NCBI GenBank assembly: GCA_017551925.1
Contig: JAFZKA010000008.1
Span: forward strand, 1 to 36,720
DNA: 36,720 nt
Direction: 5' to 3'
DNA from: Bacteroidaceae bacterium
Lineage (GTDB): Bacteria > Bacteroidota > Bacteroidia > Bacteroidales > Bacteroidaceae
Below are positions 9,161-36,720 of the stretch, piece by piece. Each line of letters begins with the position of its first letter. Positions within the stretch are counted from its first letter, which is position 1. The notes beneath the pieces are model-generated. The model saw only the letters and a list, made by a program, of their open reading frames with translations, did no database searches and had not been told where the DNA came from. Position numbers and translations under genes: made by a program.

Positions 9161-9430
9161 AAGGGAATATAGTTTCGGAAACCATGGAAAAATTTCCAGT
9201 TGCAGTAGCCGAACTGTCAGTCTGGGGAGCATCAGTGACTTGGCGTAAAGCGCGGGCCCCTGGAAGATCCCGTTAAAAACGGCGCTTGTCTGACGAAGGT
9301 TAGACACCGTAGGTGGCTATGACTGAGGAGTTCGCCGTTTAGGGTCTGGAAGGGAGCACGCGTAGCCAAGGAGCGTCTGCTCCCCAGACTGACAGTTCGG
9401 CGAAGGCTTATTTTCTTGAGTCAGTACCCC
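9161..9430 (+). repeat. R1: structured intergenic repeat, copy 1
   Basis: The core 9193-9407 aligns with 36480-36695 at about 88% by hand. Its fold has an outer 23-bp perfect stem (9209-9231 with 9378-9400), a CTTGGC/GCCAAG helix, a third helix with one bulge and one mismatch, an AAACGGCG/CGCCGTTT helix, and two terminal hairpins including CACC-GTA-GGTG at 9305-9315. The left end (AAGGGAATATAG...GAAACCATGG, from 9161) resembles the ends of element A. The right end continues into the nadK 3' codons, where TTGAGTC-N2-TACCCC matches R2. There is no ORF of substance. Function unknown: non-coding RNA, mobile palindrome, or both. Confidence 0.8.
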
Positions 9431-36447: not shown

Positions 36448-36720
36448 TAAGGGCTATAGGCTCAAAAAACACGGAACTCTTTCCAGTTGCAGTAGCCGAA
36501 CTATCAGTTTGGGGAGCATTCAGTGACTTGGCGTTAAGCGCAAGACCTTGGGAGGATCCCGTTAAAAACGGCGCTTGTCTGACGACGAATAGACGCCGTA
36601 GGCGGCTATGATGGAGGAGTTCGCCGTTTAGGGTCCGGAAAGGTCTTGCGTAGCCAAGGAGCGTCTGCTCCCCAAACTGATAGTTCGGCGAAGGCAAATA
36701 TTTTGAGTCTATACCCCTTA
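36448..36720 (+). repeat. R2: structured intergenic repeat, copy 2, with terminal inverted repeats
   Basis: The ends 36448-36467 and 36701-36720 are inverted repeats matching at 18 of 20 bases (TAAGGGCTATAGGCTCAAAA); the right end coincides with the window end, so it may extend further. The core 36480-36695 pairs with itself: 36496-36518 with 36666-36688 (23 perfect bp), 36527-36532 with 36653-36658, 36539-36549 with 36640-36650 (11 perfect bp), AAACGGCG with CGCCGTTT, and the hairpin CGCC-GTA-GGCG at 36594-36604. A 95-residue minus-strand frame across it looks like a by-product of the repeat. It is the homologue of R1. Confidence 0.85.

Follow-up and report, generated by a model that had tools for sequence, protein, structure and literature searches.

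We have identified, in a window of 36,720 nucleotides from a Bacteroidaceae bacterium (contig JAFZKA010000008.1, positions 1 to 36,720), two copies of a folded repeat of about 200 bases, R1 and R2, which is present in dozens of intergenic copies in the host genome and its relatives. Both are probably non-autonomous mobile elements of the MITE/REP kind, the conserved part of which would be a folded single strand, either RNA or single-stranded DNA (ssDNA). This reading is based on the dispersal of the copies, their intergenic placement, a strand-specific fold, covariation, the phylogenetic range and a common insertion point of IS110-family elements. We count against it that no empty site, target duplication or mobilizing enzyme was found, and that the window's own genome (G000) appears to be without Y1 transposase, reverse transcriptase (RT) and IS110. 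In the mechanism that we propose, a rod of about 150 nt would fold from one specific single strand, with interrupted helices, GTTAA internal loops and an apex of two-step tandem G·A, closed by a long outer stem (P1), and some copies would be enclosed in further inverted repeats. The rod may be recognized, as RNA or ssDNA, by a mobility or host protein, and the copies would have moved in trans.

The positions of both copies in the window were confirmed, R2 at 36448-36720 and R1 at 9161-9430, each on the plus strand, as are all features given below. R1 is located between convergent genes, beside nadK, while R2 reaches the contig end, where its right outer arm may be cut. The terminal 141 bases of another contig of the same genome (C102, L009) are identical to the 3′ half of R2 (window 36580-36720), and the assembly break thus probably falls at the repeat. 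The preliminary description, which compared the two copies by hand, had put them at about 88% identity; the measured value over the aligned core is 87.8% (27 differences in 221 positions). It had also counted six paired changes against one lost pair and one bulge, of which the excess of compensatory changes stood but not the exact counts, these now being 7 pairs in which both bases changed with pairing kept and 2 broken pairs. Against 200 dinucleotide shuffles, the predicted fold reaches z = -11.9 in R2 and z = -9.8 in R1, and the complement of R2 also folds strongly (z = -10.9) because near-palindromes fold well on either strand. As had been noted as well, no ORF explains the repeat: the 55 full copies collected are 218-223 nt long, none of the six frames stays open in all of them, and at most 12 of the 55 are open through any single frame.

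The alignment of these 55 copies revealed a common layout composed of P1, interrupted helices, a GTTAA internal loop, helix P6, two tandem G·A steps and an apical hairpin. In R2, the left outer arm (TAAGGG..TAG.CTCAAAA, 36448-36467) is predicted to pair with the last bases of the window, the right outer arm occupying 36697-36720 as far as the contig goes, and the two arms of P1 are placed by predicted fold and covariation at 36495-36516 (5′) and 36668-36689 (3′). The inner rod of R2 at 36520-36666 is matched by covariance model R1 with an E value of 6.3e-36 and 167.7 bits, the copy itself being part of the model's alignment. Its most conserved 5′ strand, GATCCCGTTAAAAACGGCG (36555-36573), comprises helices P5 and P6 and the GTTAA-type internal loop and contains many columns that are invariant over the 55 copies; the pattern of this strand occurs twice in the window and 0 times in 100 shuffles. 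The tandem G·A steps, two in number, have their 5′ side (TGACGA) at 36580-36585 (alignment columns 106-111) and their 3′ side (GAGGAG) at 36614-36619, just 5′ of which an IS110-family left end joins in three other copies. In R1, the predicted P1 arms are at 9208-9229 (5′) and 9380-9401 (3′), and the inner rod at 9232-9378 matches the same model with an E value of 1.4e-32, this copy likewise being in the alignment.

Standard pairs make up 98.1% of the 3289 pair cells in the 55 copies, and changes on both sides were found in 36 of 61 pairs. The covariation score is 0.365, compared with 0.140 for shuffled alignments, none of 500 reaching the observed value, and with 0.048-0.070 when the partners are slid; the slide control favours a structure that was derived from the same sequences, and related rows favour it against the shuffles. 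Covariation, as counted by our tool, is therefore above both controls, as expected of a structured RNA, and the collected copies (n = 55) strengthen the earlier proposal that selection acts on one folded strand, in which paired bases change together. The tandem G·A steps are a reading of the aligned letters, for which the counted support comes from the pair that flanks them (109-143), which is C-G in 36, G-C in 17 and G-U in 1 of 54 distinct rows. Apex and stem types occur as mosaics among the copies, which suggests that segments may have been exchanged between them. Three copies from three genomes (L027, L059, L163) carry the same extra hairpin close to P4, inserted into the rod's 3′ strand, and one copy on contig C42 of G000 (L068) has about 70 extra bases beside the apex, forming another hairpin.

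Were the element a palindrome of double-stranded DNA, mismatches of the G·U and A·C kinds should be equally frequent. Over the whole structure, 250 cells of the 55 copies are G·U against 18 A·C, and in the inner rod 228 against 8. Much of the asymmetry comes from a small number of columns in which wobbles are fixed or frequent, one pair being G·U in 55 of 55 copies and another U·G in 52 of 55; once columns with 15% or more wobble are left out, 41 G·U stand against 18 A·C, and P1 has 22 against 10, a weakness that was counted against our preferred reading. Since G·U is nevertheless far commoner than A·C, and since the opposite strand would turn the fixed wobbles into A·C mismatches, it is the element's plus strand that, as far as its base pairs tell, folds. 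Such an asymmetry is compatible with either RNA or ssDNA.

The outer stem P1 behaves differently from the rod. Changes on both sides were observed in 18 of its 22 counted pairs, and its 1205 cells comprise 1159 Watson-Crick, 22 G·U, 10 A·C and 14 other combinations. The median local pairing score of a P1 arm is 43 with its own partner versus 14 with the arms of other copies, and the sequence varies widely, the arms of L074/L029, L053 and L069 being unlike all others. Parsimony on the inner-rod tree gives at least 104 changes between Watson-Crick pairs, a count that is inflated because copies may exchange segments. By these comparisons the sequence of P1 is nearly free and its predicted pairing is kept. 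The little wobble found in P1 indicates that arm-to-arm copying may contribute there, so that selection and such copying may each account for part of the maintenance of the pairing. This brings in the possibility of a DNA palindrome only, perfected by arm copying (by quasi-palindrome correction or by gene conversion) and under no selection as a folded strand, which would suit the almost pure Watson-Crick composition, the weak strand asymmetry and the nearly free sequence of P1. We regard it as very improbable, for the inner rod keeps wobbles in 52 to 55 of the 55 copies, has invariant loops and flips the pair flanking the G·A steps from C-G to G-C, while arm copying would erase wobbles and mismatches. 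Repair between palindrome arms, which the preliminary description had offered as an alternative, may accordingly be retained for P1 but does not account for what the inner rod conserves, namely its wobbles, its loops and its G·A steps. In our reading, rod and P1 would be maintained by partly different forces.

Beyond P1, 29 of 97 copies are enclosed in further inverted repeats that surpass 95% of the pairings between mismatched arms. These outer arms vary in sequence, whereas P1 pairs in nearly all copies; with so few outer arms above control, a full MITE with terminal repeats is unseen for most copies.

The dispersal of the family was inspected at several levels. Searching the window's own genome by blastn gave about 40 further places, and covariance model R1, which covers 146 positions of the inner rod and was built from 38 copies, gave 49 matches in G000, the highest number of the genus set. 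Matches to this model, some of them weak, are present in 29 of 37 genomes of the genus, with 1 to 24 in each of the other 28. Many dispersed copies without coding capacity, as in a MITE, were thus observed, and of the mobile palindrome that had been suggested earlier, the dispersed and intergenic occurrence in either orientation stood, although the flanks of the copies, when inspected for an empty site or a target duplication, offered no clean case. By blastn, no match was found in 24 other families sampled within the order, nor with the R2 core in phages and plasmids. The named contigs that have both a pattern and a model match are uncultured Bacteroidales metagenome-assembled genomes (MAGs), mostly from rumen or reticulum. 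When 100 of the 128 pattern and model loci were run through the model, 83 matched at E up to 0.1; the exact-pattern matches outside Bacteroidales were rejected, the model matching none of those among the 100 loci scored.

More distant relatives were detected with the covariance models. At E up to 1e-4, model R1 matched at least 5 further genomes among 295 of the order, and model R2, built with those order-level relatives added, matched at least 5 further genomes among 395 of the phylum; both counts are minimum values, as the filters were strict and the number of candidates scored was capped. As scored by the models, the relatives in ten further Bacteroidota genomes are weaker than the copies of the genus. 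In three records of Parabacteroides distasonis (L438, L439, L441), matches to model R2 with E values from 7e-10 to 5e-9 lie between genes annotated as HU family and as smalltalk protein/amidase. In several relatives the apex is shortened to TGTCTGAGCGAAGCGAGTT and is accompanied by a 3′ hairpin with loops that, by eye, could form a pseudoknot. In Ilyobacter polytropus, copies detected by blastn have the apex motif and a 3′ hairpin in common, and NC_014633.1 contains 38 look-alike matches with the motif TGTCTGAGCGTAGCGAGTT (L442-L471); model R2 found none at E up to 1 in 12 Ilyobacter loci, and membership of these copies in the family is only suggested. Several of the Ilyobacter look-alikes also carry an inverted copy of the 3′ hairpin on their far side, as in a larger MITE. 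Perhaps the rod represents a new class of structured nucleic acids that are mobile and widespread in Bacteroidota, with a range that may extend to Fusobacteriota, and that would recruit a putative mobility or host protein and spread by it; we hold this wider proposal to be rather doubtful. Its features would be the two-step tandem G·A apex, the GTTAA internal loop and, in distant relatives, the 3′ hairpin with pseudoknot potential.

In viral contigs, a first pattern gave two stretches without a model match and a third pattern gave 92 stretches, of which 80 loci were fetched and 21 scored by model R2, with matches in two. A second pattern gave 16 stretches.

The copies are intergenic according to a simple ORF caller. 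Among the 85 of 102 distinct copies for which both neighbours were called (17 having one side unknown), the flanking genes are arranged as "> E >" in 25, "< E <" in 21, "> E <" in 23 and "< E >" in 16 cases, and there is no orientation preference relative to neighbouring genes. No conserved promoter-like sequence was found in the flanks.

Two orthologous sites were compared. Upstream of secA, the model matched in 10 of 30 fetched loci, the exceptions to the usual form being a weak copy of different type (L256), a right half beside an IS110 (L229) and an inverted copy in G005. Several species carry the element at this site with P1 arms that differ yet are self-pairing; in G021, G014 and G000 the arms are mutually different, each being a near-match to its own partner. 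At the nadK site, the model matched in 4 of 30 loci and several others hold different hairpin elements. The secA and nadK copies seem to be kept across species, which would also fit a local function, and the same pattern is equally readable as retention, re-insertion or inversion. Other hairpins found 3′ of nadK (L261, L262, L264, L265, L266, L267 and L271, from G021, G009, G005, G006, G029, G002 and G007, respectively) have the same design, with long inverted outer arms and different cores sharing GGGCCCCTCCC-type sequence, and some hairpins of this site have outer arms in common with the repeat in G020 and G022.

The apparent retention at these two sites would recall a family of functional non-coding RNAs, in which some or all copies would be transcribed and would act in trans or on their neighbours, through RNA stability for example, and in which spread would be no more than a side effect. 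The loops, wobbles and tandem G·A steps, all deeply conserved, and the HU/smalltalk/amidase neighbourhood shared by the three P. distasonis records would suit such a family as well. We find it unlikely, as the copies lack an orientation preference, have varied neighbours and flanks free of conserved promoter-like sequence, and differ greatly in number among species of one genus.

The mobile element that we favour has itself been a target of insertion. In G019, an IS110-family element, the ORF of which carries PF01548 (E 6.0e-16), splits the secA-upstream copy at the 3′ side of the apex, while the copy at the same site in G021 is uninterrupted. An IS110-family left end is found at the same apex point in three copies (L226, L115, L147); the two from G005 (L115, L147) share left-end sequence and junction but extend past the ends of their contigs, and the G005 MAG has no detected IS110 domain. 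IS110 was therefore ruled out as the autonomous partner, as the insertion sequence sits inside a copy that is intact in G021, and it was seen at the rod only as an insertion inside it; an omega-RNA or bridge RNA would be expected at the end of an element that encodes TnpB/IscB or an IS110 recombinase. The preliminary description had also considered a guide-RNA remnant such as an omega-RNA. Vestiges of a known guide-RNA system (omega-RNA, bridge RNA or retron) could be structured, repeated and intergenic like the rod, and an IS110-family element is indeed joined to it; yet such an origin seems to us extremely improbable, given the nature of this junction, the absence of a match to any known class in Rfam, HEARO included, the absence of the rod from the fetched RT loci and the other IS110 loci, and the lack of a detected Y1, RT or IS110 domain in G000.

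Across the genus, Y1 transposase was detected in 23 of 37 genomes, RT in 7 and IS110 in 5, most of the MAGs in this survey being incomplete, and none of the three domains was detected in G000. The partner search was confined to these three, and near their genes no autonomous relative with the same ends was seen. As required partners, all three were rejected, none having been detected in G000 and no rod having been found in the fetched Y1 (10 loci) and RT loci.

REPs and REPINs, which are associated with RAYT transposases, are intergenic palindromes that sometimes occur as inverted pairs and serve as sequence-specific targets of IS elements, the REPs having a length of 20-40 bp. The repeat shares the intergenic palindromic nature, the sometimes inverted pairs and the sequence-specific IS target, but its rod of about 150-200 nt (about 146 model positions, plus P1) is far larger than a REP and G000 has no detected Y1 gene. 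Could the rod then be a passenger of such a system, a Y1 (HUH) transposase moving REP-bounded ssDNA units in which the rod is a hairpin recognized by it or by a helper? The strand-specific fold would suit this, and REPs of the GGGACGGTTC type were found within 150 bp of 14 of 34 copies in G000 and 9 of 66 elsewhere, compared with 4 of 324 and 4 of 702 control windows, respectively, although these windows are mostly coding, which inflates the contrast. The same REP occurs in inverted pairs around a Y1 (RAYT-like) gene in 3 of 10 fetched loci (L203, L204, L209). Still, 20 of the 34 copies in G000 and 57 of the 66 others have no such REP nearby, and neither a Y1 match in G000 nor a rod in the 10 Y1 loci was found, so that we judge a passenger of this sort improbable.

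That IS110 elements target REPs has been described (PMC1525189; PMC11208160). In the parts of these reports compared, the likeness of REP targeting by IS110/IS621 to our case lies in the insertion of an IS110-family element at one fixed point of a repeated palindrome, whereas here the element targeted is larger and structured and is entered at its apex; this was seen in three copies, of which two show only the left end at a contig end. Among other known repeats, ERIC, YPAL, NEMIS, Bcr1 and related families are, in the passages compared, 100-200 bp intergenic stem-loop repeats in tens of copies, with a predicted common secondary structure and presumed mobility in trans (PMC2267715). Our repeat resembles them in size class, intergenic position, tens of copies, common fold and presumed trans mobility; they come from other taxa, however, and the compared passages hold no comparable report of compensatory changes (PMC2267715). 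The repeat described here has a fold with interrupted helices and tandem G·A steps, and its weak relatives are spread over several families of Bacteroidota. The GUCCY-hairpin, a candidate structured RNA of Bacteroidetes and Proteobacteria that is not in Rfam according to the table consulted (PMC2864571), could overlap with the apex of our repeat, which contains GUCYGA, as judged from its listing rather than its structure.

In Rfam, the repeat had no match, the sole sub-threshold one (RF04343) falling outside the rod, and no published description of the element was found in the literature searched, which left out most subscription journals and preprints. It looks as if the repeat belongs to a known kind, the structured intergenic mobile repeats, and is itself apparently undescribed. 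Palindromic repeats of bacteria tend to be described as simple hairpins; unlike these, the fold reported here is conserved in detail genus-wide, has weak relatives in other families, and changes by matched substitutions, its outer stem drifting freely. It thus becomes testable whether selection acts on an RNA or on one strand of DNA, and by which protein this molecule is read. The repeat would also add a case of an IS110 element housed in a structured repeat. Inverted pairs of rods, tens to a few hundred bases apart, were also observed at L070 (contig C16 of G000), L422, L431, L439 and L335.
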